Source: Candidatus Poribacteria bacterium (lineage in GTDB: Bacteria > Poribacteria > WGA-4E > JAJDTR01). From it: a stretch of DNA of 64,000 nucleotides. Of the stretch, positions 3,236-60,401 are shown piece after piece. The notes below the pieces were generated by a model. It had not been told where the DNA came from and did no database searches. It worked only from the letters and a program-made list of their open reading frames with translations. The position numbers and the translations under genes were made by a program. The stretch covers positions 108,841-172,840 of the forward strand of contig JAPPIK010000006.1 in assembly GCA_028820655.1 (NCBI GenBank), written 5' to 3'. Each line of letters begins with the position of its first letter. The stretch's first letter is position 1.

Positions 3236-3500
3236 ACAGCCGCTGTCACGCCGACTTTTCTTCCCTCCCGCAACTTGAAACTTTTAGATTGACAACTTAA
3301 CATGTATGTGGTATATTATAACCGATCGCCCGTCATGGCGGTGAAACTTTTTTTTGTTGACATCGTGTTGCTATTGCGATTCCTGAGAACCCGCTTCGGC
3401 AAAGGGATTCTTGATTTTAAATCATGCTAACTCGCCGCTAAAATCAGCGCTCCATTAGCATCTCTTTCCACTAAATCGCCTCAATGAGAAAATACGGGGA
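3236..3500 (+). repeat. Copy A of a promoter-bearing ~260-bp duplicated element
   Basis: This stretch matches 22720-22985 (other strand) over its whole length by eye. Shared blocks include CTTCCCTCCCGCAACT, ATTGACAACTTAACA, GTGGTATATTATA, CGATTCCTGAGA and CAATGAGAAAA. It carries a consensus promoter at 3289-3317. About 18 bases after the -10 box is an ATG (3335) opening a 31-codon frame ending at 3430, with a hydrophobic middle (IVLLLRFLRTRF) and no Shine-Dalgarno site. The same peptide trace is readable in copy B but is broken there by a TGA. It could be the remnant of a short gene, the end of a mobile element, or a small-RNA gene. The 23-nt dispersed repeat begins exactly at its 3' end. Confidence 0.6.
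3289..3317 (+). promoter_or_regulatory. Consensus sigma70 promoter in element copy A
   Basis: TTGACA (3289-3294), exactly 17 bases, TATATT (3312-3317). The -35 box is perfect. No convincing long gene follows for 1.2 kb, so the transcript is either short or non-coding. Confidence 0.65.
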
Positions 3501-3621
3501 TCAAGCGAGTGGATAGATCAAGTGACCGAATAAGGAACGCAATAGAATTCCAGCGAGTGAGTGAATAGCGAACGATCAAATGAGCGGATAGCGAATGCGA
3601 TAGAAATCCCGTAGAATTCCC
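3499..3621 (+). repeat. Dispersed 23-nt-unit repeat, compound copy
   Basis: A truncated unit at 3499 is followed by a unit at 3516 whose tail GCAATAGAATTCC begins exactly 23 bases later (3539). Another unit begins at 3574 with tail GCGATAGAAATCCC exactly 23 bases later (3597), then a second half-tail GTAGAATTCCC. This is the longest copy in the window. Confidence 0.75.
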
Positions 3622-3642
3622 ATACATCACAGTTCAGACAAT

Positions 3643-3936
3643 GTGGATTACCGGCACCCAACACTAACCATATTTATTTTGGAAAACAAACCATTTGATT
3701 GCCGAACTTCCCAATCACTGTTACCGGATGAGCGAAGAAATACGGCACACCGGCAAAATGAATTCGCAAGCAAGTTTCACTTAACGGCAGAAAATGTGCG
3801 TGATTCTTTGCGTGAACGAGAAATCGAAAGGTTTCCAGATAACGTTCAAAGGCTGCGAGATATTTTAGACGGATTGAGTTTGCAGCCCGCCATCACCGGT
3901 GAAAAGCGCACTGACTTAACTCAAATTAATGAATAG
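3643..3936 (+). CDS. Doubtful small ORF in repeat-rich gap
   Basis: A GTG-started frame of 97 codons. The second half looks protein-like, with a charged helix-prone stretch (AENVRDSLREREIERFPD) and then LRDILDGLSLQP; the first half does not. There is no ribosome-binding site and it abuts the dispersed repeat. It may be the remnant of a gene whose 5' part has been lost, or chance. No family is recognised. The next 670 bases up to the histidine kinase hold another repeat copy (4043-4124) and nothing else I can support. Confidence 0.2.
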   Translation: MDYRHPTLTIFILENKPFDCRTSQSLLPDERRNTAHRQNEFASKFHLTAENVRDSLREREIERFPDNVQRLRDILDGLSLQPAITGEKRTDLTQINE

Positions 3937-4042
3937 TTGGTAAAAAAAGTGAAAAAAGTAATCGACATCTTTCCTGATTGACCCGAGCTGCTGCCGCTTG
4001 AAAATCGATCGACCGAGTGGTTTGCGAGCGCGGTAGAGCTCC

Positions 4043-4124
4043 GGCAAGCGAGTGGATGGCGAGTGATCAAGGGAATGGATAATGACTGATCAAGCGAGTG
4101 AATAGCGAGCGCGATAGAGATCCC
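4043..4124 (+). repeat. Dispersed 23-nt-unit repeat
   Basis: A partial unit is followed by full units starting with GATCAA at 4065 and 4088 (exactly 23 bases apart) and the tail GCGATAGAGATCCC at 4111, again exactly 23 bases on. Confidence 0.75.
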
Positions 4125-4608
4125 ACACGTTGCAACTTGCATTAACCAAATCACGAGCATTCAGAGGCACCAAGCAGGAAATTGAGTGGCTACGCAGGTT
4201 AAGAGGCACCGAAGAAAATCCTCCTAGGCTCTCGAATGTGCATTGCGTCCTTGGTCCCCCCAACATCGTGAAACAAGTCTGATACGAATGACGCTATTAT
4301 CGAAAGATGTCTATTGCATTGGCACCACCAAGATTCAAGTGACTTGCCCCGCGTTGACTTCGCTTTATTGCGGCACACAACACCGGATACAATGCATAGC
4401 GATATTCTATAACTACGCATATTGGCTTTGGCATCGAAACCGCCTAATACCGATGACAACCAGTGCACTCCCACGCTCTCAGTCTCTTTTGTAATCCCGA
4501 GTTCTTGTACTGGGCGCGAAAGTCGCGAAATCCTCAAGGCGCAGCCAACCTGGGTATTCAGATCGCTTGGAGTGTCCAAATAGTATGAATTGAAGGGGCC
4601 ACCAGACC

Positions 4609-6357
4609 ATCAAACTCCACCACAAAATCTTCCTCACTTACACCTCACTGTTCCTCATAACCGTCGGCGGCATATTCGCGATTGCAAGTTACTTTATACG
4701 CGCCGCATTTGACGAGCAGATCCGCGAAGAGGCGGCGGAATTCAAAACGCGCATCTCTGAAACGAGCAATTCCCTCGTCGCGGATATCGAAGAGAAGGTC
4801 GAAACCGAAAGATCCGACCCGGATGTGGTGCGCGCCATCAGAAACCGGGAAACGCGCCCGCCGACGATTCGAGACACGGCACTTCAGATTCTTGAGTACG
4901 GAAACGCCGATGGCCAAGTCATCGCCAGCCGACTAGATTTGGACTTTCGCCGGGGCGAGGTTGACTGGGAAGCTCAGGCACGCGCGGAGAACAAAACCCC
5001 CAAATCTGCGATACGGTTGAGAAAGTCGCCGCGCGGCGAAAGCGGCTCATCCGAATCTGCAATCGAGGTCACCCTGCCGATCAAGGCGGGCGAGAAAATC
5101 TTGGGTTTTGTCACGGGCGGCTATTTCTTGCGAGACCGACTTCACCGCGCGCTGAGAAATCAATCGCGGCATACGGTGTATCTTCGCGAAGCGGATGAGT
5201 TAATCCCTCTGAATCAGTCTGAAGATGTCACACCCCTCGAAAAAGATAATCTGCTTGAGGCCGCCGGCGAGGGCAAAACCGGCGTGTTCTCGAAGATCAA
5301 GCTTGATAACATGCCGCACAGTGTTATTCCGGTGGCGCTGCCGACGTTGACGTTAACTTCACCTATTGAGTTGATTATCGCGTATTCCCACGAGAACGAA
5401 ATTCGGTTGCAGCGCCAGTTGACTCTGATCCTTTTTGTCGTCGGGGCAGTCGGGCTACTGTTCGCTTATGTTGTCAGCTACCTCATCGGTCTCCGGATGA
5501 CCAAACCGATTCATCAACTCACGGCAGGCGTAAGCCGGATTGCGTCCGGGGAACTCTCTCACCAACTTGATGTGCACACCCGGGACGAAATTGGCCAGCT
5601 CACACAAGGCGTCAACCAGATGGCGACGGATCTGAAAACCAATCTGGAGCGGCGAATCAGCGCCGAACGCGTCGCCGCCTGGCGGGATGTGGCGCGCCAG
5701 ATTGCCCACGAAATTAAGAACCCTCTGTTTCCCATTCGTGTCTCCGTCGAAAACCTTCAGAAAGCGCGCTCTCAGCCCGAAATCTTCGACGCCATCTGCG
5801 ACGAATGCACAGAGACTATCATTGAAGAGGTCGACCGGCTCCAGCGGATGGTGGACGAATTCCATCAGTTCGCCCGGCTGCCCCTTCCCGATCGTAAGCC
5901 CTCGGACCTCAACCAAATCGTCGAACACACACTGAATCTGTACTCCCAATCGCTGTCGGGGGTTCAGATCGAGCCCGACCTACATCCCGACCTGCCTCTC
6001 ACCTCTATCGACCCGGAACAAATTGCCCAAGTCTTACAGAATCTTATCAAAAACGCAGTGGAAGCCATGCCGGACGGCGGAACTTTGAGAATTTTAACGC
6101 AACCGATGGACGGAGGCGGGGTTGCGGTGGAGGTTCAGGACACCGGTATGGGAATGTCGTCGGAAACGCAGCAGGAGATATTTACCCCGTACTACACGAC
6201 AAAGGATACCGGGACTGGCTTGGGTATGGCGATTGTGCAACGAATCATCACCGATCACGGCGGAAAAATCTCTGTGACGAGCGAGAAAGGGGTTGGCACT
6301 CTGATACGTCTGGAGTTCGCGAATCCCAACGCAGTAGGAGATCAAGCAAGCGGATAG
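4609..6357 (+). CDS. NtrY-like membrane sensor histidine kinase (non-canonical start)
   Basis: The open frame runs from a stop at 4591 to 6357 and encodes a first membrane helix (FLTYTSLFLITVGGIFAIAS), a periplasmic sensor region, a second helix near 5413-5490, a HAMP linker (MTKPIHQLTAGVSRI), a HisKA domain with AHEIKNPLFPIRVSVEN (phospho-accepting His codon 5707-5709) and an HATPase domain ending with GTGLGMAIVQRI. The linked HAMP, HisKA and NPLFPIR pattern is typical of NtrY-type kinases. The first ATG/GTG-type start (4825) would delete helix 1. The best-placed start is ATC at 4609, 10 bases after AAGGGG, giving 582 residues beginning with IKLHHKIF. Either this is a rare AUC start or the start codon has been mutated. 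No response regulator lies beside it. The last codons fall inside a dispersed repeat. Confidence 0.85.
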   Translation: MKLHHKIFLTYTSLFLITVGGIFAIASYFIRAAFDEQIREEAAEFKTRISETSNSLVADIEEKVETERSDPDVVRAIRNRETRPPTIRDTALQILEYGNADGQVIASRLDLDFRRGEVDWEAQARAENKTPKSAIRLRKSPRGESGSSESAIEVTLPIKAGEKILGFVTGGYFLRDRLHRALRNQSRHTVYLREADELIPLNQSEDVTPLEKDNLLEAAGEGKTGVFSKIKLDNMPHSVIPVALPTLTLTSPIELIIAYSHENEIRLQRQLTLILFVVGAVGLLFAYVVSYLIGLRMTKPIHQLTAGVSRIASGELSHQLDVHTRDEIGQLTQGVNQMATDLKTNLERRISAERVAAWRDVARQIAHEIKNPLFPIRVSVENLQKARSQPEIFDAICDECTETIIEEVDRLQRMVDEFHQFARLPLPDRKPSDLNQIVEHTLNLYSQSLSGVQIEPDLHPDLPLTSIDPEQIAQVLQNLIKNAVEAMPDGGTLRILTQPMDGGGVAVEVQDTGMGMSSETQQEIFTPYYTTKDTGTGLGMAIVQRIITDHGGKISVTSEKGVGTLIRLEFANPNAVGDQASG

Positions 6358-6411
6358 CGCGCGCGATAGTAAATCCTGCGATAGAGTTCCCGATGCGATA
6401 GGAATCTTCTC
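6340..6411 (+). repeat. Dispersed 23-nt-unit repeat overlapping a gene end
   Basis: The unit starts GATCAAGCAAGCGG at 6340 and the tail GCGATAG begins exactly 23 bases later (6363), with two more tail-like half copies to 6411. The unit supplies the last codons and the TAG stop of the histidine kinase gene, so here the repeat has entered or formed coding sequence. Confidence 0.7.
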
Positions 6412-6537
6412 CCAATCGCGACCGCAAGAATATAGAAGCGCAATCCACCCCAAACCGCTAGAACGTTAACCAAATCAATCCTCGCTCTACGTTCCCGAGT
6501 TTCGGTTGTAACGTCCCGCAATCACCCCATTTCTTCC

Positions 6538-6566
6538 TTGCAATTTCCCTTTGCCTATGCTAAACT
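6538..6566 (+). promoter_or_regulatory. Predicted sigma70 promoter
   Basis: TTGCAA (6538-6543), 17-base spacer, TAAACT (6561-6566), about 75 bases upstream of the rubredoxin-like gene. Confidence 0.5.
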
Positions 6567-6640
6567 TCGCAACGTTTTCCAAGTCTTAAACCGTGCTAAT
6601 TCTTACCGATTTTTGACACACAAAACAAGGAGGATAAACC

Positions 6641-6895
6641 ATGTTCGTTTGCACAGCTTGCGGCTATTTGTGGACGGATGCTGAGGAACCGCCCGAGGAA
6701 TGTCCTGCATGCGCCGCACCCAAGGAAAAATACATTCCCTATGATGACCGGGCAGAAAGATGGGTCAAAAGAGCGGTGGCGTCTCATGTGATGTACCCGG
6801 ATGAAGAGGGAGCAGACCTGCGCGCGGAGAATTCGGCGCTGTCATCGCATATTCGTTTCGCACTCGTTGGTTTGCTTGAAGAACTCAAAGAGTAA
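6641..6895 (+). CDS. Rubredoxin-like metal-binding protein
   Basis: The 84-residue protein opens with a rubredoxin-type knuckle: CTACGY at residues 4-9 (CxxCGY) and CPACAAPK at about 27-34 (CPxCxAPK), which together form a four-Cys site for one iron or zinc. The spacing between the knuckles is short, as in the rubredoxin-like domains of rubrerythrins. The remaining 45 residues are charged and helical with no further Cys. A full electron-transfer rubredoxin normally ends soon after the second knuckle, so the C-terminal half is an extension that may bind a partner. AAGGAGG eight bases before the ATG supports the start. A promoter lies at 6538-6566. The gene is monocistronic, followed by about 215 bases of intergenic DNA with a REP-like stretch near 6945-6985. 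Confidence 0.75.
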   Translation: MFVCTACGYLWTDAEEPPEECPACAAPKEKYIPYDDRAERWVKRAVASHVMYPDEEGADLRAENSALSSHIRFALVGLLEELKE

Positions 6896-7110
6896 CGTGC
6901 CAGCCATGCCATCGCTCCATAATGACGATGCATCAATGGCGTGAATTAGAATCGCGGTTCGGAAAGGGAATTCTATCGCGCGAAGATCTCCATGGGATTA
7001 GCTATCGCCCTCCCTTTTCAGAAGGTTAATCCTTCGTTATTCACTCAGTTCATCTATTTCAGCCGCTTCATCTTAAAACTGGCAGGTTTTCACTCCCTAA
7101 GGAGATATGG

Positions 7111-8664
7111 ATGCGACAACTGATAATCACCGGAACAAATACAATGAAAATACTCAAACCAATCGCATGTCTGCTGCTGACCCTATACGCGGCGGCGCTA
7201 TACGCCGCGGGCTTTGAAGACATCGAAGCACAGGTGCAAGAGCACGTGTTGTCGAACGGAATGAAGTTCATTATCCTTGAGCGGCACGATGCGCCCGTGT
7301 TTTCGGGATACATCTACGTTAATGTCGGCGGCGTTGATGAACCCGTGGGGAACACCGGAATCGCTCACGTTTTCGAGCACATGGCGTTCAAAGGAACAAC
7401 GACGCTCGGAACAAAAGACTACCAAGCAGAGAAAGCCGTCATGGATGAGATGGACGCCGTGTACGACCAACTCAGGAGCGAGTGGGTAAAAGCTGATCGT
7501 GCCGACCCCGAAAGAGTGAAACAGTTACAGGCGGAGTTTGACGCCCTGCAAGAGAAGGTATCCCAGTATTCCGATGGTGAGGAATATTCGAAACTTCTGG
7601 AGCAGGAGGGGGCTGTCGGTATCAACGCAACCACCTCCGCGGATTCCACCGAATACTTTTATAGCCTTCCGTCAAATCGGCTCGAACTCTGGATGGCGCT
7701 TGAATCGTCGAGGTTTCTCGACCCGGTGATGAGGGAATTTTTCAAGGAGAAGGATGTCATCAAAGAGGAGCGCCGAGGGCGCGTGGGCAGCAGCCCCATT
7801 GGCAGGCTGTTGGAAGAAATGAACGGGTTGGCTTTTCTCGCGCATCCTTACGGTCGTCCGATCATCGGTCACATGTCCGATATCAATACGACAACGCGCG
7901 CCGAGGCGCTTGCGTTCTTCGAGCAGTTTTACGCGCCCAGCAATATGGTGGCGGCGATCGTAGGCGATGTCCAGACCGACCAAGTCATCCAAATGGCGGA
8001 AAAGTACTTCGGCCAAATTCCGTCCCGCGCCAACCCGCCCCTTGTCGAAACCATCGAGCCGAAACAGTTGGGTACGCGGCATGTCAAACTCACGGAGCAA
8101 TCGCAACCAATTTTCATCTGCGCTTACCATGTTCCATCCATAAGGCACCCCGATTTTGTAGTACTGGGAGCAATCGCTGACATCCTGTCCTCCGGACGCA
8201 CGTCACGTTTTCACAAGAAGCTGATTCGCGACGAGAAAGCCTCAATCTCCGTCGGCGCGTTTCCGGGGTATCCGGGCGACAAATACGCCAACCTTTTCGT
8301 TGTATACTCATTCCCGGCGCAAGGGCATTCAAACGAGAAGAATGAAGAGATGATTATGGCCGAGATTGAGAATCTCAAGACCGAACTTGTGACAGAGGAT
8401 GAGTTGAAGAAAGTCCAGAGGAACGCGAAAGCCGGTTTTATCCGATCGTTGCGCTCCAACCAGGGTTTAGCCGCGGCGTTGTGTACCAGCGAATTTATCC
8501 GGGGTGACTGGCGTGAGATTTTCAACCTATTGGAACACATCGAAAAGATAACCGCGGAAGATATCAAACGTGTAGCGAACGAATACTTCGTGGATAACAA
8601 TCGTTCTGTCGCGGAAATTGTTACCGAAGAAGCATCTAAAGAAGAAACGGAGGCCGGTGAATGA
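7111..8664 (+). CDS. M16 family zinc peptidase, catalytic subunit
   Basis: This is an insulinase/pitrilysin-type peptidase of 517 residues. The inverted zinc motif HVFEH (HxxEH) is at residues 86-90, preceded by NTGIA, with a downstream acidic cluster (KEKDVIKEERRGR) that should supply the third zinc ligand. An N-terminal signal peptide (KILKPIACLLLTLYAAALYA) indicates export, so it probably degrades peptides in the periplasm. The start at 7111 is favoured by AAGGAG six bases upstream; an ATG at 7144 would begin directly at the signal peptide. It overlaps the next gene by ATGA, so the two are translationally coupled, and that gene encodes an M16 relative without the zinc motif. This is the usual arrangement for a heterodimeric M16 peptidase. 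Confidence 0.9.
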   Translation: MRQLIITGTNTMKILKPIACLLLTLYAAALYAAGFEDIEAQVQEHVLSNGMKFIILERHDAPVFSGYIYVNVGGVDEPVGNTGIAHVFEHMAFKGTTTLGTKDYQAEKAVMDEMDAVYDQLRSEWVKADRADPERVKQLQAEFDALQEKVSQYSDGEEYSKLLEQEGAVGINATTSADSTEYFYSLPSNRLELWMALESSRFLDPVMREFFKEKDVIKEERRGRVGSSPIGRLLEEMNGLAFLAHPYGRPIIGHMSDINTTTRAEALAFFEQFYAPSNMVAAIVGDVQTDQVIQMAEKYFGQIPSRANPPLVETIEPKQLGTRHVKLTEQSQPIFICAYHVPSIRHPDFVVLGAIADILSSGRTSRFHKKLIRDEKASISVGAFPGYPGDKYANLFVVYSFPAQGHSNEKNEEMIMAEIENLKTELVTEDELKKVQRNAKAGFIRSLRSNQGLAAALCTSEFIRGDWREIFNLLEHIEKITAEDIKRVANEYFVDNNRSVAEIVTEEASKEETEAGE

Positions 8665-10868
8665 GGAATCTCTTGTGCTGTGTGATAATCTGGGGTTGCG
8701 TTTTTGTGGTCGTCGCTTGGGGCGAGAAACCACTGGAGGCACTTGAATCATCTAACATGGCGATGGCGGCAGATACACCGAACGTTGAAACGATGGACGT
8801 TCTTTCAAAAAAGCCGCACGAAGGGCTTGTCTATCCTCCTCTGAACCAACCGCAACCGCCTGTGCCCCGGCGGGTGGAACTGGACAGCGGCATGATTATT
8901 TACCTGTTGGAAGATCATGAATTGCCGATTGTTGACATCTCGGTGCAGATTCGAACCGGGGCGATTTACGAACCGGAAGACAAAATCGGGTTAGCCGCCA
9001 TCACCGGCGCCGTGATGCGTACGGGCGGAACCACCAGTAAAACCGGAGACGAGCTTGATGAAATCCTCGAGAATCTCGCCGCCTCCGTCGAGGTCGGGAT
9101 AGGCGGTGATTCCGGGACGGCATCAATGTCCGTGTTGAAAGAGGACCTCGACACCGGTCTCGCTATCCTCGCAGACGTGCTCATGAATCCGGCGTTTCGG
9201 GAAGACAAAATCGAGTTGGAAAAGGTTCAACATCGCAGTTCGATTGCCCGGCGTAACGATAGTGCACGCAGCATCACCTCGAGAGAATTTCGGAAGCTAA
9301 TCCACGGCGCGGACAGTCCCTATGCCCGCACAACGGAATACGACACCATCAATAGCATCACGCGGGATGACCTTGTGGCTTTTCATGCGAAATACTTTCG
9401 ACCGAACAACACCATCTTGGGTGTGCTTGGGGACTTCAACTCCGAGGAGATACTCGGCAAAATTAGGGGTGCTTTCACAGGATGGCAGCCTGCGGAGATT
9501 GACCTTCCCGAAAAACCCAAAGTACACGAGGACATGGCGAGAAGGGTGGGTTTGGTAACGAAAGACGACGTGAATCAGACGAACATCAGGATGGGGCACG
9601 TCGGATGGCTGCGCAGCAACGAGGATTACCCCGCCTTGGTGGTGGGCTGCCAAATTCTCGGCATCGGTTTCAGCAGCAGATTGATGAACAGCATTCGAGT
9701 CGAAAAGGGATTGGCATATTCCGTAGGCAACAATTACGGCGCGGGCTACGACGTCCCCGGCGTTTTTCTCATCGTCTGTGCAACAAAGTCGGAGAGTACG
9801 GTTACGGCAACCGAGGCGATTCTGGCGGAAGTCGAACGGATGCGCGCCGAAGAGGTGTCGGATGAGGAGTTAAAGCAGGCAATCGATGGGTTCATGAACT
9901 CGTCCGTGTTTGACTACGACTCAAAGGGAGAAATCTTGTCTCGGGCTCTCAGATATGCGTATTATGACTATCCTCAGGACTTTGTCGAGCAATTGATGGC
10001 GGAGATTCGGAACGTCACAAAATCGGATGTGCAAAGGGTTGTTGCCAAATATATGCATCCCGATCAATTCACCATCTTGGCGGTCGGCAAGGCGAGCGAC
10101 TTCGATAAGCCCCTCGATTCCTTGGGCGACGTAACTGAAATTGATATTACCATTCCGACTCCGTCACCGGAGCCCGTGCCCGAAGCGGGCGAGGGAGATG
10201 TCGCGAAAGCGAGAGAGATTCTTGCCGCAGCTACCGAGGCGCACGGCGGGTTGGAGAATCTGAAGCAAGTGAAAACGTTCGTGTCGATTGGAGAGATAGT
10301 TATGAACACGCCTGCCGGAGAGATGACGATGGATGGCGAATTTACTGTCGCGCTGCCTGGCAAGTCACGAAATGATATGACGATCCCGGCGATGGGGATG
10401 ACAATGAGTCGAGTGCTTGGCGCGGATTCGGCGTGGATGGTGGGTCCTCAAGGCTCACAAACGATGCCGGAAGTCTTCGCTCAGGAGGGCAGGAATGTGA
10501 TTTTTCGACTGGATCCTCCCTTACTCACCTATGTCTCCGGTGCCGAGGTGCCCGTCCAACATCTCGGCGAAGAGGACGTCAACGGGCAAATGGCAGATGT
10601 GGTTTTGGTCAGTGATACGCCCGCGGGTTCCATCAAACTATTCATCGATCAGGAGTCTAAGCACATCGTTAAAAAGGCGTATCAGGCTTTGGGTCAACAG
10701 GGCGAGCCCGTGCAACGCGAGGAATTTCCCGGAGATTATCGAGTCATCTCCGGCGTGAAAGTTGCTTTTTCTATTGTCTTGGTTGACAACGGCGAGAAGG
10801 TTGCCGAGGTGACACTCAGCGAGGCAAAAATCAACGCAGAAGTTGACGAGTCAATTTTCGAGCAGTAG
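8661..10868 (+). CDS. Inactive M16-like subunit with C-terminal lipoprotein-sorting-like domain
   Basis: The 735-residue exported protein has a signal peptide at residues 1-20. Residues about 60-500 have the M16 fold signature (LDSGMIIYLLEDHELPIVDISVQI), but the place of the HxxEH motif reads IGLAAITGAV, so zinc ligands and catalytic Glu are missing. The second M16 half is intact (QILGIGFSSRLMNSIRVEKGLAYSV). Residues about 520-735 form an extra domain starting AREILAAATEAHGG and rich in beta strands (GEMTMDGEFTVALPGKSR), reminiscent of LolA/LppX-type lipid-carrier folds; that resemblance is from pattern only. It is translationally coupled to the active peptidase gene and is probably its partner subunit. 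Confidence 0.85.
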   Translation: MRNLLCCVIIWGCVFVVVAWGEKPLEALESSNMAMAADTPNVETMDVLSKKPHEGLVYPPLNQPQPPVPRRVELDSGMIIYLLEDHELPIVDISVQIRTGAIYEPEDKIGLAAITGAVMRTGGTTSKTGDELDEILENLAASVEVGIGGDSGTASMSVLKEDLDTGLAILADVLMNPAFREDKIELEKVQHRSSIARRNDSARSITSREFRKLIHGADSPYARTTEYDTINSITRDDLVAFHAKYFRPNNTILGVLGDFNSEEILGKIRGAFTGWQPAEIDLPEKPKVHEDMARRVGLVTKDDVNQTNIRMGHVGWLRSNEDYPALVVGCQILGIGFSSRLMNSIRVEKGLAYSVGNNYGAGYDVPGVFLIVCATKSESTVTATEAILAEVERMRAEEVSDEELKQAIDGFMNSSVFDYDSKGEILSRALRYAYYDYPQDFVEQLMAEIRNVTKSDVQRVVAKYMHPDQFTILAVGKASDFDKPLDSLGDVTEIDITIPTPSPEPVPEAGEGDVAKAREILAAATEAHGGLENLKQVKTFVSIGEIVMNTPAGEMTMDGEFTVALPGKSRNDMTIPAMGMTMSRVLGADSAWMVGPQGSQTMPEVFAQEGRNVIFRLDPPLLTYVSGAEVPVQHLGEEDVNGQMADVVLVSDTPAGSIKLFIDQESKHIVKKAYQALGQQGEPVQREEFPGDYRVISGVKVAFSIVLVDNGEKVAEVTLSEAKINAEVDESIFEQ

Positions 10869-16532: not shown

Positions 16533-17014
16533 AGCAATGAAATCGGACGGCAGGTTGTGAGAAATAGCCAGACGTGTTGCTCACGAGACATGACCACGTT
16601 TTTCGCTTGTCCCCTCTACGCCGTCTGTTATATACTCTGTGCTTGATGCAGGTCGGCTATGCGCTCGCTTTCGACACCAGCTTACAGTCATGGCAAATCT
16701 TAATTCCGCTTGCCCGCGTTCAGGAATAAACATGGGAACTCTGTAGGGTGGCCACTGCCCACCGGTCTCTAAAAGCCTCAGTGGGGAAAGGTATGTAGCA
16801 AACAACAATTAAAGCATGAAGAAACTTCCCATAAATGACTATAAGTGCCTTCGCTGCCGATTATTCAAACAGGCTCTATCTGCTATTCCCAAACATCCGG
16901 ACTTGCTCAGTCATTTGTTGTCGGGTGTAATCAAGCGAATGAATAACGAGTGATCAAGGGAACGGTTAGTGACCGCGATAAAAATCCCCTGCGCTCCAGC
17001 CTTTACTTAATCCT
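16533..17014. other. Gene-free gap with REP palindrome and dispersed repeat
   Basis: At 16744-16768 is a palindrome of the GTAGGGTGGCCACTGCCCACC type, related to those at 18105, 19050 and 28027. At 16929-16988 the 23-nt dispersed repeat has two units exactly 23 bases apart (16929, 16952) and its tail GCGATAAAAATCCC at 16975. I see no supported gene between them. Confidence 0.6.
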
Positions 17015-23019: not shown

Positions 23020-23325
23020 TTGGAATCGTGATTCGGAGATCCCTCCCACAGCGGGGGATCGGGATTCGGAAATCCCTCCTACAGCGGGGGGCGGGATTTG
23101 GAAATCCCTCCCACAGCGGGGGATCGGGATTCGGAAATCCCTCCCACAACGGGGAATCGTGACCTGGAGATCCCTCCTACAGCGGGAGATCGGGATTCGG
23201 AAATCCCTCCCACAACGGGGAATCGTGACCTGGAGATCCCTCCCACAGCGGGGGATCGGGATTTGGAAATCCCTCCCACAACGGGGAATCGTGACCTGGA
23301 GATCCCTCCTACAGCGGGGGGCGGC
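23020..23325 (+). repeat. Nine-copy 33-bp tandem array
   Basis: Nine units whose CCCTCC core starts at 23041, 23074, 23106, 23139, 23172, 23205, 23238, 23271 and 23304, so the period is 33 bases with one 32. The unit runs roughly GGGGATCGGGATTCGGAAAT then CCCTCCCACAGCG. From the fourth unit on, two variants alternate (ATTCGG/ATTTGG versus ACCTGG before the core), giving a 66-bp higher-order repeat. The unit resembles single dispersed palindromes such as that at 51059-51090. There are no spacers, so this is not CRISPR. The open frames through it are an effect of the multiple-of-three period. Confidence 0.9.
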
Positions 23326-44407: not shown

Positions 44408-44469
44408 GATCAATTAAGCGAATGGCGAAGGCGTTACCAAATCCTGCTTGCTATTCACTCGCTTGATTG
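44408..44469. repeat. Dispersed 23-nt-unit repeat with inverted second unit
   Basis: A + strand unit starts GATCAATTAAGCGAATGG at 44408, with a tail-like GCGTTACCAAATCC exactly 23 bases later (44431). It is immediately followed by a unit in reverse orientation (its - strand reads CAATCAAGCGAGTGAATAGC). The two arms can pair. Confidence 0.65.
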
Positions 44470-46126: not shown

Positions 46127-46449
46127 AGTCTCGGCTTAGAATTTAGGGGTACCACCAATACCATTTCGCTTGGAGAACAGTGCGTAGAGTAAAGTGCTTA
46201 TTTCGCTAGGACTTACACGGTTACGCGGTCTATCACCCGGTAGGATAAAGTGACTGAACAAGGAGCGCGATAGAGATCCCTTGAACTCCGAATCGCGACT
46301 CCAACCGTCGAAATTTGCCAGTTTCGCACCGTCATTTTGGAGAAATGGTATTACCGTATCGCGGTTGAAACGTGGTTTCGGTTTAAGCCAGGTGTGCGGT
46401 GAAAACAACACGGAGTGGAGATGGTGAGCCGTGCCCATCTTACAAGAGA
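46127..46449. other. Convergent gap with dispersed repeat
   Basis: One 23-nt unit at 46244 (GATAAAGTGACTGAAC) and its tail GCGATAGAGATCCC exactly 23 bases later (46267-46280). A TAGGACTTACACGG motif at 46207 resembles TAGGACTTACGCAG near 29370. No gene is seen. Confidence 0.6.
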
Positions 46450-49881: not shown

Positions 49882-49918
49882 AATCAAACGACTGAATAAG
49901 GAGTGCGATAGAGCGTCC
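49882..49918 (+). repeat. Dispersed 23-nt-unit repeat
   Basis: A unit starts AATCAAACGACTGAATAAGG at 49882 and the tail GCGATAGAGCGTCCC begins exactly 23 bases later (49905). The rest of the divergent gap 49725-50223 has a partial unit near 49973 but no gene. Confidence 0.65.
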
Positions 49919-50223
49919 CACTGTCAGTTTGCGTATCACAGGCACATCCTAACAGACCAATCGACTGAATGAGATCGACCACACGGATAGTGAGGGAGCG
50001 ACTGAATTGACAGCGAAGAAGGTAAGATCCCATAGCCAATCCCACACAATAGAGAGCGCTCATGCTACAAAGGTGGCGGCTTGGGGTATATTATCTTGGT
50101 TTTGTCGCTCGCCATACGATCGAGTCGAGTTTTTTTACCATTTTTCTTGGATAAGAACGACAAATCGATGTGGAAAGATTCAAAGATAAAGAATCGGGGA
50201 CTCGGTAAATTAACACACCAGAG

Positions 50224-51163: not shown

Positions 51164-51211
51164 GATCAAGCGAGTGAATAGCGAGCGCGATAGAATTCCC
51201 ATAGAAATCCC
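51164..51211 (+). repeat. Dispersed 23-nt-unit repeat
   Basis: A unit begins GATCAAGCGAGTGAATAGCG at 51164, with the tail GCGATAGAATTCCC exactly 23 bases later (51187) and a second half-tail CATAGAAATCCC. This is the most consensus-like copy; it ends 33 bases before the next gene. Confidence 0.75.
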
Positions 51212-51926: not shown

Positions 51927-52017
51927 GATCAACTGAGCAAACAACGAAGGATCAAGCGAATGGATAATGAGCAGGATTTCTATCGCACTCCATAATCGGT
52001 CGCTTAATCTATTCGTT
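51927..52017. repeat. Dispersed 23-nt-unit repeat with inverted tail
   Basis: Units start GATCAACTGAGC at 51927 and GATCAAGCGAATGG at 51950, exactly 23 bases apart. Another 23 bases on (51973), where the tail should begin, the sequence is AGGATTTCTATCGC, the exact reverse complement of a tail, followed by an inverted unit. So the tail module has flipped in place. Confidence 0.7.
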
Positions 52018-54121: not shown

Positions 54122-54194
54122 GGTGATGTGTGTAACTAAATGTATGGGAATGACTACGGATGTCATCACGCCCTAGCCACCGGCTATTTTTCAC

Positions 54195-54222
54195 TTGACC
54201 AAATTCCCGCGTCTGATATAAT
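54195..54222 (+). promoter_or_regulatory. Predicted promoter of the TlpA-like gene
   Basis: TTGACC (54195-54200), 16 bases, TATAAT (54217-54222), about 155 bases before the ATG at 54377. Confidence 0.6.
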
Positions 54223-54376
54223 CCCGCGGCCTTTTCGAATTGGGCTGTCATGGTTCCCGCAAAAGGAGTCATCGATGCACCAATGACCACCGATTCATCT
54301 TGACTGAACAAACAAGGTTGTTATTAAAAACGAAATCTCGTAAGTATAACACCATCTCACGCGAGGAGGCTATATC

Positions 54377-55384
54377 ATGAATCTTCGAAGCGCACGTTCC
54401 TGCCGACAGTTAGTCCCGGTTGTTTGTATACTCGCAATCGTGATGTGCGTTACCATCGTCTATGCGGGCTCGGTACCGCCGGCGTTTAAGTATCAAGAGA
54501 TAAAGAGACTTCACAAAAAAATGCTGAGAGGCAGTGGATCCGGCGACTTGGATGTGCTTATTGATAAGGCGGCGGCATTTGTGACCGAGCATTCCGATTA
54601 TAAAAGGGCCGCCCAGATCCACTATATACTGGGCGGTGCGCTGTCCCGCGCCGATCGCACCGAAGAGGCCGTTCAGACTTATGAACGTCTCACAAAGGAT
54701 TACCCCGATGGCTCGTTCCCCGGGGAAGTTTGGCTGAAGCTGGGATTGGCTTACGACAAGCTCGGCCGGCACGACGAAGCCAACGGCGTTTATCAACGGC
54801 TTATCGATCATCCCAAACACGGCTCTAGTTCGTTTGCAAACACTGCCAAGAGGACATTGGCAATGGACCGAACGTCGCGCAAAGGCGAGATGCCGTCCAA
54901 CAGATTCCAAATGGGCAACCCGGACGAACTGGTTGGAAAACCGGCAATCGAATTCCATGTCAAGGATGTGAATGGGGGCGACCTTTCGTTGGAAAAACAC
55001 CGGGGCAAAGTTGTCCTACTCGATTTCTGGGCGGTTTGGTGCGGACCTTGCCGAGCGGAGACGCCGCATCTGAAGAGGGCATACGAGGAATTTAAAAACC
55101 GGGAATTTGAGATAATCGGCTCCAGCTTGGATCACAATGAGTCCGAGCTATTGGCATACATTGAGGAACAGGAAATGACTTGGCCTCAGTTTTTGAATGA
55201 GACAGGGGAAAACGACATCGCGCAAAAGTATAACGTCATGGCAATTCCGCAGGCTTTCCTCATCGATCACGAAGGCGTAATTCGCAAAGCGAACCTGCGT
55301 GGGCACGCTCTGGAACCGGCGATCGCCGAACTGCTTAAAGAGCGCGATGCAAAATTGGGGGCGGCAATCAACCCCGTTAAGTGA
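54377..55384 (+). CDS. Exported TPR protein with TlpA-type thioredoxin domain
   Basis: The 335-residue protein has a signal peptide (about residues 1-30, RQLVPVVCILAIVMCVTIVYA). TPR repeats follow at about 45-165 (IHYILGGALSRADRTEEAVQ, WLKLGLAYDKLGRHDEANG). The thioredoxin-like domain (about 190-325) contains the redox site FWAVWCGPCRAETPHLK and the cis-Pro region NVMAIPQAFLIDHEG. It should act in the periplasm as a thiol-disulfide oxidoreductase, as in cytochrome c maturation or general disulfide reduction; TPRs may select partners. GAGGAGG stands before the ATG. It has its own promoter at 54195-54222. Confidence 0.9.
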   Translation: MNLRSARSCRQLVPVVCILAIVMCVTIVYAGSVPPAFKYQEIKRLHKKMLRGSGSGDLDVLIDKAAAFVTEHSDYKRAAQIHYILGGALSRADRTEEAVQTYERLTKDYPDGSFPGEVWLKLGLAYDKLGRHDEANGVYQRLIDHPKHGSSSFANTAKRTLAMDRTSRKGEMPSNRFQMGNPDELVGKPAIEFHVKDVNGGDLSLEKHRGKVVLLDFWAVWCGPCRAETPHLKRAYEEFKNREFEIIGSSLDHNESELLAYIEEQEMTWPQFLNETGENDIAQKYNVMAIPQAFLIDHEGVIRKANLRGHALEPAIAELLKERDAKLGAAINPVK

Positions 55385-55456
55385 TGGTGCTGGTATTGGT
55401 TCATATAGTTGTCGCAACTGGCAATTACGCATGCACGTGAGTAATGACTTCCTTCT

Positions 55457-55483
55457 GTACCACAATCTGCTAGATTGTGGTAC
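55457..55483. other. Perfect 12-bp hairpin
   Basis: GTACCACAATCT and AGATTGTGGTAC around a 3-base loop (GCT), 73 bases after the TlpA-like gene. There is no T-tract. It may be a REP-type element or a processing site. Confidence 0.5.
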
Positions 55484-55646
55484 TCGCAAACCAACAGTGG
55501 GAAGTTTTATCGCACTCCTCATTCAGTCGCCTGGTTGCTACAAGGCCGCGTCCGGTTTTGGGGAATTGCCCATATCATCGTCGTTCATTAACATACAGTC
55601 AAATATGTGCAGATGTGAATATGAATGACTATAACCTACAACACAG

Positions 55647-56675
55647 ATGAACATTCTTGGAATTGACACATCCTGCGACGAAACTGCCGCCGCAGTCGTC
55701 GTCGACGGCAGAGAGATTCTATCCAACATCATCTCTTCGCAGATTGATCTGCACAGGAAGTACGGCGGGATTGTGCCCGAACTGGCGTCTCGAAAACATG
55801 TCGAGTCGATTAACTACATCGTTGATCAGGCGATGCTCGAATCGGGAACCGGCTTCGAGGATCTTCGGGCTATCGCAGTGACAAATCGCCCCGGACTAAT
55901 CGGCGCGCTGCTCGTGGGCGTTGCCGCGGCGAAATCCCTGGCATACGCGCATAACCTCCCCCTGCTCGGTATAAATCACATTGAGGGGCATATCTACGCG
56001 AACTTCATGGTGCACGATGCACTCCCGTTTCCGCATGTTTGCTTGACAGTTTCCGGAGGGCATACGCTGCTGGTGGAAGTGCAAAAAGAGTGGCGGTATG
56101 AGGTTCTCGGGGGTACGCTCGATGATGCCGCCGGTGAGGCTTACGACAAGGTGGCGCAGTATCTCGGCCTCGGTTTTCCCGGCGGGAAGGTAATCGACGA
56201 CTTGGCGAAACAGGGCAATCCGGCGGCGATTGAATTCCCCCGCCCGATGTTAGACAGCGGCGACTATCAGTTTAGTTTCAGCGGAATAAAAACCGCCGTT
56301 CGATATTACGTGGACAACGCAAAATCCTCCGGGGCAATGCCTCCCATCGAAGATATCGCGGCAAGTTTCCAAGCTGCTGTTGTGGACGTGCTGGTGCGCA
56401 AAACCATTCGCGCCGCACAAGAGAAAAACGCCAGAGCAATTACGCTGACCGGCGGTGTGGCGGCGAACAGCCAACTCCGTGCCTCTATGTCTGGAGCGGC
56501 AGATAGCCTCGGCGCGAAAGTCTACTATCCGCCGATCAACCTATGCACCGACAACGGCGCGATGATTGCCGGAATAGCATATCACCAGTACCAAACGGGG
56601 CAGAGGGATGCGCTCGACCTTAACGCATCCGCTTCGGGCTCAATCTTGGAACAACAGGAGCGCAACGCCTCGTAG
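55647..56675 (+). CDS. tsaD: tRNA N6-threonylcarbamoyladenosine transferase subunit TsaD
   Basis: TsaD moves the threonylcarbamoyl group onto A37 of ANN-decoding tRNAs. The 342-residue protein begins MNILGIDTSCDETAAAVV and has the iron-binding HIEGHIYANF (His111, His115). It continues with CLTVSGGHTLLV, AAGEAYDKVAQYLGLGFPGG, FSFSGIKTAV, TGGVAANSQLR and LCTDNGAMIAGIAY, all family hallmarks, so the protein looks fully functional. The gene for TsaC/Sua5, which makes the threonylcarbamoyl-AMP donor, follows at once. No ribosome-binding site is obvious before the ATG. Confidence 0.97.
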   Translation: MNILGIDTSCDETAAAVVVDGREILSNIISSQIDLHRKYGGIVPELASRKHVESINYIVDQAMLESGTGFEDLRAIAVTNRPGLIGALLVGVAAAKSLAYAHNLPLLGINHIEGHIYANFMVHDALPFPHVCLTVSGGHTLLVEVQKEWRYEVLGGTLDDAAGEAYDKVAQYLGLGFPGGKVIDDLAKQGNPAAIEFPRPMLDSGDYQFSFSGIKTAVRYYVDNAKSSGAMPPIEDIAASFQAAVVDVLVRKTIRAAQEKNARAITLTGGVAANSQLRASMSGAADSLGAKVYYPPINLCTDNGAMIAGIAYHQYQTGQRDALDLNASASGSILEQQERNAS

Positions 56676-56699
56676 AATGGGTGGTCGTTCCCTCGCAGC

Positions 56700-57326
56700 T
56701 TGCATTCTCAATCATCTATATCGGTGAATTCTTTTTCTCCTCGGCATCTGAATCAAGCCGTTCAACTCCTGAAAGATGGAGATGTTGTCGCTTTTCCAAC
56801 CGATACGGTATACGGCGTTGGGGTCGATCCGCTCCAACCGGAAGCGGTGCGCAGGCTGTATCGGATAAAGGGACGACCGGATGATAAACCGATTGCCGTT
56901 CTCGTCGGATCGATTGAAGATGTCGAACGCGTCGCTCAAACTCCTTCAGGAGCCTTCTCTCGACTTGCTGATCGATTTTGGCCCGGTGGGTTGACGCTGA
57001 TCGTCGAAGCGCGAGATTTACCGCCGGAGATTACCGCGGGTGGAAATACGGTAGGCGTCCGAATGCCCAACCACGCGTTAACGTTGGACCTTCTAGGCGG
57101 CTTTGGCGGCCCAATCGCAACCACCAGCGCGAACAGATCGGGTGAGAACGCTGCGACCTCCGCCGAGGAAGTAGCTGCCCAGCTTGGCGATCGTGTCAAC
57201 CTGATTATAGACGGCGGAGAAACCATCACAAAAGTCGCTTCGACGGTGCTTGATCTCTCGGTGTCGCCTCCGCAAATTCTCCGTCACGGGGGTATTTCCG
57301 AGGAGTCGTTGATGGAATGTCTATAG
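56700..57326 (+). CDS. tsaC: Threonylcarbamoyl-AMP synthase (TsaC/Sua5 family)
   Basis: The enzyme makes threonylcarbamoyl-AMP from threonine, bicarbonate and ATP for t6A37 modification. The 208-residue YrdC-fold protein has LLKDGDVVAFPTDTVYGVG, the KGRPDDKPIAVLV motif, FWPGGLTLIVEA, VGVRMPNHALTLDLL and PIATTSANRSGE. It is the short form (no extra C-terminal Sua5 domain). The start is uncertain: TTG 56700 or GTG 56724; the first conserved residues begin near 56755. It follows tsaD by 24 bases, so both steps of the t6A pathway are co-transcribed. Confidence 0.93.
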   Translation: MHSQSSISVNSFSPRHLNQAVQLLKDGDVVAFPTDTVYGVGVDPLQPEAVRRLYRIKGRPDDKPIAVLVGSIEDVERVAQTPSGAFSRLADRFWPGGLTLIVEARDLPPEITAGGNTVGVRMPNHALTLDLLGGFGGPIATTSANRSGENAATSAEEVAAQLGDRVNLIIDGGETITKVASTVLDLSVSPPQILRHGGISEESLMECL

Positions 57327-57362
57327 TCAATTTTATTCACATTTACACATATTTCGGTAGGT

Positions 57363-57434
57363 GATCAAGCGAACGGATAGTGAGTGATCAACTGACTGAA
57401 CAAGGAAGGCGATAGAACTCCCATAGAGATCCCT
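57363..57434 (+). repeat. Dispersed 23-nt-unit repeat
   Basis: Units start GATCAAGCGAACGG at 57363 and GATCAACTGACTGAAC at 57386 (23 bases apart), the tail GCGATAGAACTCCC at 57409 (23 bases on), then the half-tail CATAGAGATCCC. The remaining gap to 57704 has one GGTTCGGTTAGGAAACC hairpin and no gene. Confidence 0.75.
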
Positions 57435-57704
57435 TTCCAACCCCCCTACGAGACTGGATAAATACCGGTTCGGTTAGGAAACCGAACCTACCACAGTGTA
57501 AAAAATGATAATAGGTATTATTATAGAGGGCGAAAAGCTTGTTTGAATAAACAATGTAACTTGGTGCCATACTTTGAATGAAGTAGCGACTTAATCAACT
57601 AAGAGTGACATTGGTGTCCATTTTCCTAACTGGTTGAAGATGGCGTGGTAGGAAGACTTCCAACCTTCCATTCCTCCAACCTTAACCCGATGGAGGATAC
57701 TCTC

Positions 57705-58304
57705 ATGGCACGACAGGTATTCGTAGACATCGACACCCAATATGACTTTGTTAGTCGGGACGGAGCGCTCTCCGTGCCAGGCGCCGAAGAAATTCGAGGC
57801 AACTTAAAGACACTGACCGATTTCGCAGTGAGAAACGGCATTAAGATTGTCGCCTCCGCTGACGCGCATGTCCCGGATGACAAGGAGTTTGAGGTTTTCC
57901 CGCCTCATTGCGTTCAGAATACACCGGGACAAAAGAAGATTGAAGAGACAACCATAGAGGCTACGGTTGTGCTTAAAAATGACGCCTCAGGCACAGCGAG
58001 CGCGGACGACATCGAAAGCGCCGACCAGGTTCTGTTGGAGAAACAAACGTACGACGTGTTCACCAATCCCAGTGCGTCCGGAATTTTTGAAGCCGCCGAT
58101 GGCGATGAATACATTGTGTACGGTGTAGCCACCGATTACTGCGTCAAAGCCGCCGCTGTCGGCTTGCTTGAACGCGGATACAAGGTGACGGTGGTCAAAG
58201 ACGCTATCGCCGCGGTTGCGCCGGAAACGGGAGAGGAATCCATCGCGCTGATGGAGGAGATGGGAGCAGGATTCAAGACGACGCATGAGATCGTCGGTAG
58301 GTAG
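57705..58304 (+). CDS. Nicotinamidase-like cysteine hydrolase (isochorismatase fold)
   Basis: From ATG 57705 (GGAGG seven bases upstream) the protein has 199 residues. It shows VFVDIDTQYDFV with the catalytic Asp, SADAHVPDD followed by FPPHCVQNTPG, which resembles the metal-binding Asp-x-His...His site of PncA-type nicotinamidases, a Lys in VVLKND, and the nucleophilic Cys in GVATDYCVKAAAVGLLERGY. The expected reaction is nicotinamide to nicotinate in NAD salvage; a related amidase is possible. The histone-deacetylase-like gene follows after 12 bases. Because NAD-dependent and zinc-dependent deacylases both relate to protein acylation, a functional link is conceivable, but this is speculative. 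Confidence 0.82.
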   Translation: MARQVFVDIDTQYDFVSRDGALSVPGAEEIRGNLKTLTDFAVRNGIKIVASADAHVPDDKEFEVFPPHCVQNTPGQKKIEETTIEATVVLKNDASGTASADDIESADQVLLEKQTYDVFTNPSASGIFEAADGDEYIVYGVATDYCVKAAAVGLLERGYKVTVVKDAIAAVAPETGEESIALMEEMGAGFKTTHEIVGR

Positions 58305-58316
58305 TCGGAGAAGAAG

Positions 58317-59267
58317 ATGAACACTGGCGGGATGACCGGATTGGCGTATCACTCCGATTATGTCAAACACGATACGGGGGCAGGGCATCCTGAGCGACGG
58401 GATCGCATACGAGCGGGAATTCAGGCGCTTCAGGCGTCAGACTATTGGGAACGACTGCATCACATTGAACCGACACATGCCGCAGTGGAGCAAATCCGGT
58501 ACGCGCACGCCAATGACTACATCGAGCATGTACGCCGATGCTGTGAACAGGAAATCAACTTAGACTACGATACGCCAGTCGTAAAGGCATCATTCGACAT
58601 TGCCCGTCTCTCAACCGGCGGGTTATTGAGGGCAGCCGATGCGGTGATGGCGGGAACAGTTCGCCACGCATTCGCGCTCGTTCGTCCGCCCGGACACCAT
58701 GCCACTCCGAGCAGAAGCATGGGATTCTGTTTGTTCAACAACGTCGCGGTCGCGGCACGCTACCTACAACGCGAGCACGGAATCGGGAAGGTGGCGATCG
58801 TCGATTGGGACGTGCATCACGGCAACGGCACACAGGATATTTTCTACGCCGACCCTTCGGTCTTCTTCTTCTCCATTCACCAATCGCCGCTATATCCGGG
58901 AACGGGCGCAGCCAATCAAACCGGCTCCGGGGCTGCGCTGGGCTCAACGCTCAACGCGCCCGTGCCGGCGGGGAGCGATCTCGACACCTACGTGGAAACT
59001 TTCGAAAAGGTTCTCACACCTGCACTGCTGCACTTCTCACCGGATTTTATTCTCATCTCCGCCGGCTTTGATGCCCACCGGCGAGATCCGCTCGCCACCA
59101 TCAAACTGACCGGCGAAGGTTTCGCGACCCTCACCAGAATCGTCCTCGACATTGCCTCGGAAACGGCTGAGGGTAAGATTGTCTCTGCATTGGAGGGAGG
59201 ATACAGTCTGAAGGGCTTATCGGAGTCGATTGTCGCGCATGTAGGAGAACTCGTAAAGAGCGATTAA
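58317..59267 (+). CDS. Histone-deacetylase-superfamily zinc amidohydrolase (AcuC-like)
   Basis: The 316-residue protein has the HDAC-fold hallmarks: TGAGHPERRDRIRAGIQALQ, ALVRPPGHHATPSRSMGFCLFNNVAVAARY with the active-site His pair, and VAIVDWDVHHGNGTQDIFYADPSVFFFS with zinc ligands Asp and His. LISAGFDAHRRDPLATIKLT carries the third ligand Asp, and ALEGGYSLKGL ends the domain. It should remove acyl groups from protein lysines, polyamines or small molecules. The start ATG 58317 has GGAGAAG upstream. It is coupled to the nicotinamidase-like gene (12-base gap). The stop codon region lies at the edge of a dispersed repeat (59274 onward). Confidence 0.92.
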   Translation: MNTGGMTGLAYHSDYVKHDTGAGHPERRDRIRAGIQALQASDYWERLHHIEPTHAAVEQIRYAHANDYIEHVRRCCEQEINLDYDTPVVKASFDIARLSTGGLLRAADAVMAGTVRHAFALVRPPGHHATPSRSMGFCLFNNVAVAARYLQREHGIGKVAIVDWDVHHGNGTQDIFYADPSVFFFSIHQSPLYPGTGAANQTGSGAALGSTLNAPVPAGSDLDTYVETFEKVLTPALLHFSPDFILISAGFDAHRRDPLATIKLTGEGFATLTRIVLDIASETAEGKIVSALEGGYSLKGLSESIVAHVGELVKSD

Positions 59268-59273
59268 ACGAAC

Positions 59274-59356
59274 GATCAACTGAACGAATAAATCTAGCGA
59301 GCGCGATAGAGATCCCAAGGGGATAGGAAGTCTTGATAGAGTTCCCATAGAAATCC
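59274..59356 (+). repeat. Dispersed 23-nt-unit repeat, slightly out of phase
   Basis: A unit starts GATCAACTGAACGAATAAAT at 59274; the tail GCGATAGAGATCCC begins at 59303, 6 bases later than in other copies. Further half-tails run to 59356. The rest of the gap to 59632 has a REP-like GGAGATCGCTCCTAC and no gene. Confidence 0.65.
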
Positions 59357-59632
59357 TAGTGCGACATAAACCATCTCGCCCCACACCCAACACGGTAGAC
59401 GGGACATCTTGCCCCGCATCCGAGGCCAAACGGGGTGAATAGCGATGCATGGGAACCGGTCATGGTAGGCGGTACCTACCTTACAGACCTTCGTTACAAG
59501 AATCATCTATCGCGCTCGCTCTCCACTGCGCCGATCATTCGCCTGATCAGCGCTCATTCTAGAGGAAGACGCGATGAGGAGATCGCTCCTACTGGACGGC
59601 TGGTGGATGCTGTCGCTTTCCCGAATCCTTTG

Positions 59633-60337
59633 TTATTTTTTTCGCCCGACGTGAATCGCCACAATGCCGAAAGTCTTCCTATAAAACCTGACATCCTCCA
59701 ATTCGCACGAACGCATAATTCTCGCCAACTCCTCACAATCGGGAAATTGCATCACAGACTGCGGAAGATAACCGTAAGCATCGTCTCTGTTCTTCGAGAC
59801 CAGATTCCCTATACAGGGCAAGACCTTCGTGAAGTAAAAGTAGTAAAAACCCGTAAACATCCGATGGTTTGGTTGGGTGAACTCCAAGATAACGACACGT
59901 CCGCCGCTGACAGCCACCCGCGCCATCTCCCTAATGCCACGTTCGAGGTCGGCAACATTGCGAATGCCGAACCCGACTGACACCACATCAAATGTCTCTT
60001 CTGCAAAGGGAAGCGAAAGCGTATCGGCCTCAATAGGGACAAACGCTCTCGGGCGTTCCTGTTTCTCAACCTTCGTCTTGCCGACCGCCAACATTTCAAA
60101 GCAGAAATCCGTCCCGATCACCGCCGCACTCGTTCCCATTTCATCGGCATAGGCAAGCGCGAGTTCGCCGGTTCCCGTACAGACATCAAGTACCTTGCTC
60201 CCGGGTGAAACACCGCTAGCCCGTGCGGTAGACCTTCTCCATGAACGATCAAACCGGAGGCTCAAGAGCGAATTAAGGAAATCGTATTGCCTCGCTATGG
60301 CGGTAAAGATTTTGTGAACGTAGATCGCTTTGTTCAT
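59633..60337 (-). CDS. menG: Demethylmenaquinone/ubiquinone methyltransferase
   Basis: The enzyme methylates the quinone ring in the last or late step of menaquinone (or ubiquinone) synthesis, using SAM. The 234-residue protein has the UbiE/MenG pattern: HKIFTAIARQYDFLNSLLSLRFDRSWRR, SAM motif SKVLDVCTGTGELALAYA, ADTLSLPFAEETFDVVSVGFGIRNVADLERG, and VVILEFTQPNHRMFTGFYYFYF with LPCIGNLVSKNRDDAYGYLPQSVMQFPD near the C-terminus (the UbiE signature). Whether the host makes menaquinone or ubiquinone cannot be told from this gene. No other men or ubi gene is adjacent. Confidence 0.94.
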   Translation of the reverse strand: MNKAIYVHKIFTAIARQYDFLNSLLSLRFDRSWRRSTARASGVSPGSKVLDVCTGTGELALAYADEMGTSAAVIGTDFCFEMLAVGKTKVEKQERPRAFVPIEADTLSLPFAEETFDVVSVGFGIRNVADLERGIREMARVAVSGGRVVILEFTQPNHRMFTGFYYFYFTKVLPCIGNLVSKNRDDAYGYLPQSVMQFPDCEELARIMRSCELEDVRFYRKTFGIVAIHVGRKK

Positions 60338-60365
60338 TGGGATTCAGCGGTTAGGACTGAGGCGA

Positions 60366-60401
60366 GATCAAGGAATGGACAATGACTGCGGAAGAGATTC
60401 C
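60366..60401 (+). repeat. Dispersed 23-nt-unit repeat, degenerate
   Basis: A unit starts GATCAAGGAATGGACAATG at 60366 and the tail-like GCGGAAGAGATTCC follows 22 bases later. Confidence 0.5.

Follow-up and report, generated by a model that had tools for sequence, protein, structure and literature searches.

A tandem 23-nt hairpin cassette nested in GTAG-tagged repetitive extragenic palindromes of Candidatus Poribacteria

Cassettes in the window and in the genome

We analyzed a dispersed repeat in G000, a Candidatus Poribacteria metagenome-assembled genome (MAG) of 5.88 Mb in 61 contigs, starting from the 64,000-nt stretch C22:108841-172840, here called the window. The repeat is built from a 23-nt unit with the leader RATCAA, and we use the term cassette for one to three units followed by the tail GCGATAGARATCCC. 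Cassettes can lie inside repetitive extragenic palindromes (REPs), and a REP with or without a cassette is called filled or empty, respectively. We compared G000 with its nearest relative, G001, a congener or sister species; the two genomes were assembled independently. The original prediction was that units and tails keep an exact 23-nt phase. We verified units and tails at 4065/4088/4111, 16929/16952/16975, 57363/57386/57409, and 3574/3597, and likewise at 6340/6363, 46244/46267, 49882/49905, and 51164/51187. The copies in the window are as follows, with [..] marking the cassette between REP arms.

3499..3610, plus strand: array of a truncated unit at 3499 and units at 3516, 3551, and 3574, with the tail GCGATAGAAATCCC at 3597-3610
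4007..4124, plus strand: array of a unit at 4007, a tail-like stretch, and a unit at 4042, with 4065 and 4088 in 23-nt steps and the tail at 4111-4124
6340..6408, plus strand: unit 6340-6362 preceded by GTAGGA; three tail repeats follow
6966..7054, minus strand: degenerate unit 7054-7032, with a tail near 6979
16929..16988, plus strand: two units and a tail between the REP-like arms GGGTGT...TGCGCTCC
44408..44468, both strands: facing units, 44408-44430 on the plus strand and 44468-44446 on the minus strand
46244..46280, plus strand: unit immediately 3' of GTAG, with a tail
49882..49919, plus strand: unit and tail in a GTAGC[..]ACTGT(C/T)AGTTTGCG REP
51164..51211, plus strand: unit, tail, and 11-nt tail extension, among the few cassettes shared with the orthologous place in G001
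51927..52009, both strands: two plus-strand units (51927, 51950) facing one minus-strand unit (52009-51987) with a tail
55500..55536, minus strand: unit and tail in a TTGTAGC[..] REP; the orthologous intergenic stretch is almost wholly missing from G001 (9-nt gap)
57363..57433, plus strand: two units, tail, and tail extension inside a GGTAGGT[..]TTTCCAACC REP
59274..59357, plus strand: degenerate unit with tails; no counterpart found at the orthologous position of G001

Tandem Repeats Finder reported a period of 23 at the array 4007..4124. The step from 3499 to 3516 is 17 nt, so the 23-nt spacing is broken in the window itself. The empty counterpart of the REP at 57363..57433, GGTAGGT-GCGG-TTTCCAACCGCACC, is present elsewhere. 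The window also holds tandem 33/66-nt units (GGAAATCCCTCCCACAGCGGGG...) at 23022-23320, which look like a head-to-tail array of another REP.

We then scored units with a position weight matrix at a cutoff of >12 bits, which admits a few percent of chance matches. The scans covered stretches of the genomes, which are draft MAGs with some masked runs of N, and genes were predicted with a simple purpose-made gene finder. In 831 kb of G000 we found 326 units, compared with about 10 in second-order Markov sequence of equal length. Of 197 clusters, only 6 fall within predicted genes, which make up 77% of the sequence. The proposal of a genuine, abundant, and intergenic family that avoids coding DNA thus held up. 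In 1.23 Mb of G000 there were 327 arrays, of which 268 were single, 52 double, and 7 triple in exact 23-nt steps; 1.17 Mb of G001 held 332. Extrapolation gives on the order of 1,500 arrays per genome. The proposed exactness of the spacing stood only in part: a step of 23 nt dominates between neighboring G000 units (52 cases), but steps of 35 (15), 17 (10), 12 (4), and 18 nt (3) also occur. The 17- and 18-nt steps represent units cut in the loop, and a 35-nt step spans a unit and a 12-nt tail, after which a further cassette begins.

Structure of the unit

The unit consists of the 6-nt leader and a 17-nt hairpin, NN-GA-NN-GRATA-NN-GA-NN, and this composition accounts for the 23-nt phase. The variable positions are complementary, 7-8 with 22-23 and 11-12 with 18-19, and the three highest mutual-information pairs within the unit are the stem pairs 11-19, 8-22, and 7-23. 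Among 287 distinct units, 945 of 1,148 stem cells were paired, compared with 680 ± 12 when partners were shuffled, and 59 different fully paired stems occurred. RNAalifold, given 60 diverse sequences, predicted exactly the four stem pairs de novo. Pairing reached 80% versus 57% after shuffling, double changes numbered 68 versus 19, and the covariation score was 0.70, compared with ≤0.18 for slid structures. We replicated this result blind, with the stem columns of the search matrix zeroed so that units were picked without stem information. Pairing was 80.9% in G001 (54.2% shuffled) and 95% in the few copies of G014 (68% shuffled); the effect was weaker in G004 (68% versus 54%).

Other positions are fixed. 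GA lies opposite GA, with both intact in 200 of the 287 distinct units, and the GRATA loop is conserved too. We take the fixed GA/GA to be tandem sheared G-A pairs, and we presume a likeness of GRATA to a GNRNA loop. G-T pairs filled 172 cells (238 expected), whereas A-C filled 56 (139 expected); because G-T is tolerated more than A-C, the written strand is the structural one. In the last unit of a cassette, ATC of the leader can pair with GAT of the tail (present in 144 of 196), which places AA opposite GC (both present in 158 of 196). A possible helix between the 5' and 3' flanks measured 5.72 bp, little different from the 5.58 bp of shuffled flanks. The constraint on length that the original prediction had drawn from the phase is real, but its suggested basis, a ruler of two helical turns, gives way to the covarying 17-nt hairpin with its 6-nt leader. 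The spacing that was puzzling becomes a testable structural object. With hundreds of copies and many compensated stems in one genome, the family amounts to a mutagenesis experiment done by nature, from which the rules of recognition by an enzyme acting on single strands could be derived.

A cassette subtype with an AGCAA leader and a GCGGTAG tail occurs inside CACTAAC-type heptamer repeats (ACTAACC/ACTGACC, stretches L053, L055, L067, and L069). Leader position 3 covaries with tail position 27 (T/A versus G/G).

Nesting in REPs and turnover of sites

The host elements have a 5' GTAG foot followed by a palindrome. Their arms around the cassette include TGTAGGGTGC[..]TGCGCACC, GTAGTAGC[..]TTCATTGCGC, GGTAGGT[..]TTTCCAACCGCACC, and GTAGGCGGG[..]CTTGCCCCG, and further hosts are GCCCCAGAGGG[..]AAGGTGTATAG, CACTCCAGCG[..]GCAATGTC, and TGTAGGA[..]CTCCGAATCGCGA. 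Empty hosts carry about 4 nt in the cassette's place (GCAC, GCAA, GCGG, GCAT, GAGT, or GCGAT), and the gap between the arms is 4 to 8 nt when empty versus 37 to 41 nt with one unit. The cassette therefore replaces about 4 nt, for a net gain of about 33 nt, plus 23 nt per extra unit. Two empty forms fold strongly as DNA (−6.7 and −8.8 kcal/mol). The empty forms GTAGGGTGCGCACTGCGCACC and GTAGGAGCGAYCTCC-TCGCGA are textbook GTAG REPs (cf. Table 1 of PMC2817692). Among cassettes with a canonical tail, GTAG lay within 16 nt upstream in 54 of 158 in G000 (3 in the reverse orientation) and in 51 of 151 in G001 (9 in the reverse orientation). It abuts the unit in five cases only; usually the GTAG of the host is another 1 to 5 nt away, and a large number of units lack one. 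These data demonstrate that cassettes are nested in GTAG REPs of several families with unrelated stems, on the GTAG strand. The 23-nt module itself had no Rfam match at the gathering threshold or at E values up to 5, and a nonexhaustive literature search turned up no described repeat like it.

Larger composites also carry these REPs. One resembles a miniature inverted-repeat transposable element (MITE), with the ends TTAGAGCCTGTTTGAAAA and TTTTCAAACAGGCTCTAA and several REPs, some filled and some empty (G000 C42:18654 and C56:100600-100955; G001 C66:94063 and C86:41665). Another has inverted ends around TCGACTTTGTACA and carries the GTAGGCGGG REP, filled or empty depending on the copy (G000 C4:75187-75404 and 286414-286657; G001 C20:203592, C135:89420, and C102:10409).

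At one orthologous site, the REP is filled in G000 (C41:2777) and empty in G001 (C66:33510). The alignment spans 373 nt in G000 and 340 nt in G001; a 37-nt stretch in place of GCAA makes up the 33-nt difference, with no target duplication. The empty host form of this pair, GTAGTAGCGCAATTCATTGCGC, has 30 copies in the cassette-less genome G007 and is also found in G012, G024, G030, G039, and G050; the cassette-less genomes G002, G015, and G026 contain the GTAGGAGCGAYCTCC REP ("H7 REP"). Because empty forms occur in cassette-less relatives, the empty state is the older one, and the change is a gain rather than a loss. Sites also turn over quickly between the sister species: among 66 syntenic gaps, units were present only in G000 in 15, only in G001 in 11, and in both in 10, and few of these 10 are the same site (51164 in the window is a shared example).

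A search of 84,980 species genomes for the exact 37-nt pattern of unit plus tail matched only MAGs of Candidatus Poribacteria; a close variant of this pattern had no match in viral contigs. A covariance model run over 85 Poribacteria genomes matched cassettes in 7. Three of these, G000, G001, and G004, have many copies, and the count of each is a lower bound set by the number of candidates scored. G014 has 21 matches, mainly on a few short contigs, and its contig C72 may be cross-binned. G010, G080, and G081 have 1 to 3 each.

We asked whether the genome encodes a REP-associated tyrosine transposase (RAYT) or an IS200-like transposase, as the original prediction had proposed to check. Three G000 proteins exceed the cutoff for NF047646, the RAYT family, one on C60 and two on C61, and a fourth match above the cutoff lies on C28. 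RAYTs are therefore present, with REPs beside them. The RAYT gene at C61:117604 is preceded by empty REPs in direct orientation and followed by inverted, filled members of the same REP family, the genes at C61:100579 and C60:78291 have filled REPs close downstream, and the REP cluster downstream of the G001 RAYT gene (C51:34810) includes cassettes. With copies inside classical GTAG-tagged REPs and the RAYTs of the genome flanked by those REPs, the earlier remark that the repeat is not recognizable as a described REP or bacterial interspersed mosaic element (BIME) family was not supported in that form. All three C60/C61 RAYT genes have a cassette within 165 nt, compared with a background of 21% of genes, and the C28 RAYT lacks one; this proximity is a weak signal. 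A REP array similar to window 23022-23320 lies just upstream of the RAYT gene on C60.

An autonomous element was sought in low-copy genomes (G014 C72 and C116, G010, and G004) and not found; the copies there are also nested in REPs. The cluster on G004 C9, considered as a source of a cassette-specific gene, proved instead to be an IS200-like TnpA flanked by GCCCCAGCGGGGC REPs. There (stretch L129, 2500-9200), a long GCCCCAGCGGGGCGACAGGT REP array surrounds the tnpA gene (2816-3316, minus strand) and includes cassettes that belong to two sequence types and are oriented in opposite directions.

Routes of spread and known systems

We favor the explanation, with a probability of roughly 0.6, that the cassette is a nonautonomous, single-strand-acting hairpin passenger of the REP/RAYT system that enters resident REPs. 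Each unit supplies the leader RATCAA and a mini-hairpin of two covarying pairs, a tandem G-A/A-G mismatch, two further covarying pairs, and the GRATA loop. The cassette would act in a folded, single-stranded DNA form, probably when replication makes REP loci single stranded. Once in a resident REP, it would spread by copying of cassette-bearing REPs and BIME-like composites. The hairpin may be retained since a recognizing protein, probably a RAYT or a related HUH enzyme, needs it. Tandem duplication of a single hairpin would generate extra units and set the step at 23 nt. A bolder version is doubtful: the cassette would be a minimal mobile hairpin, about 33 nt net, that enters unrelated REP stems by a strand-specific single-strand route of its own. 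It would be a hyperparasite of REPs, and the compact hairpin by which it is recognized, with its tandem sheared G-A pairs, would have no described counterpart.

Several observations do not fit well with the passenger explanation. RAYT and IS200-like genes are equally present in cassette-less relatives, so RAYT presence fails as a discriminator and a RAYT is only a candidate for the enzyme that moves the cassette. The isolated hairpin is marginal as RNA (−1.3 to −2.6 kcal/mol), and the 35-nt unit plus tail folds as DNA no better than its shuffles. Insertion interrupts the strong hairpin of the REP, and this could abolish RAYT recognition instead of exploiting it. The filled and empty single-copy orthologs inspected in full amount to one pair. 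Finally, beside codirectional flanking genes in G000, cassettes are 96 sense and 43 antisense, an excess that is confounded with regional strand. This excess, the strand-specific structure (172 G-T cells versus 56 A-C), and the presumed GNRNA-like loop would suit arrays that act as RNA, as untranslated-region docking sites for an RNA-binding protein or in mRNA stability, with each copy selected. We consider this improbable. A third of the copies beside codirectional genes are antisense, there is no preference (18:15) when local and regional gene strands conflict, and cassettes between mixed-strand genes follow the regional strand in 35 of 48 cases. Whether the alignment is with replication or with transcription, these counts are suggestive only. 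Moreover, insertion is REP and strand specific, and sites are mostly unshared between sister species, which argues against a function at each site.

Spread purely by homologous recombination or template switching between repeats, with no dedicated recognition of the hairpin, has a similarly small chance. Junction types are family specific, the replacement of 4 nt is reminiscent of copying from one hairpin to another that matches it in part, and cassette-bearing composites recur as larger units. However, switching of templates inside a hairpin would eliminate its G-A mismatches, and these remain intact in most units while the neighboring pairs covary, and the same cassette sits in REPs with unrelated stems. 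A classical MITE of an unseen DDE transposase would share the high copy number, intergenic and noncoding nature, and fast turnover, but the cassette has no terminal inverted repeats, left no target duplication where it replaced GCAA at the orthologous site, and is strongly strand biased in its insertion; we think this very unlikely. The 23-nt tandem steps and the masked runs of N might suggest plain slippage or an assembly artifact. This is refuted by the dispersal of more than 300 arrays in about 1.2 Mb of each of two independently assembled species and by structure-specific covariation. CRISPR was also rejected, since the sites are dispersed and have no spacers.

The family offers a naturally occurring example of nesting inside REPs, in which filled and empty orthologs can be compared, and it is useful for asking how REPs spread and what RAYTs move. 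The hosts belong with the known GTAG REPs and BIMEs that have RAYT (TnpA_REP) transposases, sharing the GTAG foot, palindrome, hundreds of copies, and RAYT gene beside the REPs (PMC2817692, PMC3733652, PMC8266576). In E. coli REPs, an AA-GC mismatch is conserved and is required by TnpA_REP (PMC8266576). The last unit with its tail resembles them in placing AA opposite GC between ATC/GAT and the hairpin stem, which is a resemblance and not proof of kinship. The difference from the REPs described in the literature found is a shared tandem covarying 23-nt hairpin inside the stems of unrelated REP families. IS200/IS605-type ends have a guide tetranucleotide 5' of a hairpin. The cassette is like them in its strand specificity and in its invariant leader directly 5' of a hairpin with a variable stem, but it has neither a gene nor defined cleavage sites. 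Insertion sequences such as ISPpu9, ISPa11, and others specifically target REPs (PMC1525189); the cassette shares this specific insertion, whereas they encode a transposase and it is noncoding and only about 33 nt net.

The BOX elements of Streptococcus have a variable number of boxB modules between flanking modules, and in S. suis the same boxB lies between two flank pairs, A/C and E/F (PMC3049150). Similarly, our module occurs in variable tandem number between differing REP arms. The sequence appears different and the unit size differs, the flanks are independent GTAG REPs also found empty, and no RAYT link was seen reported for BOX in the literature found. The best reading is that the module and its hosts are a variant of REP/BIME with an architecture like that of BOX elements.

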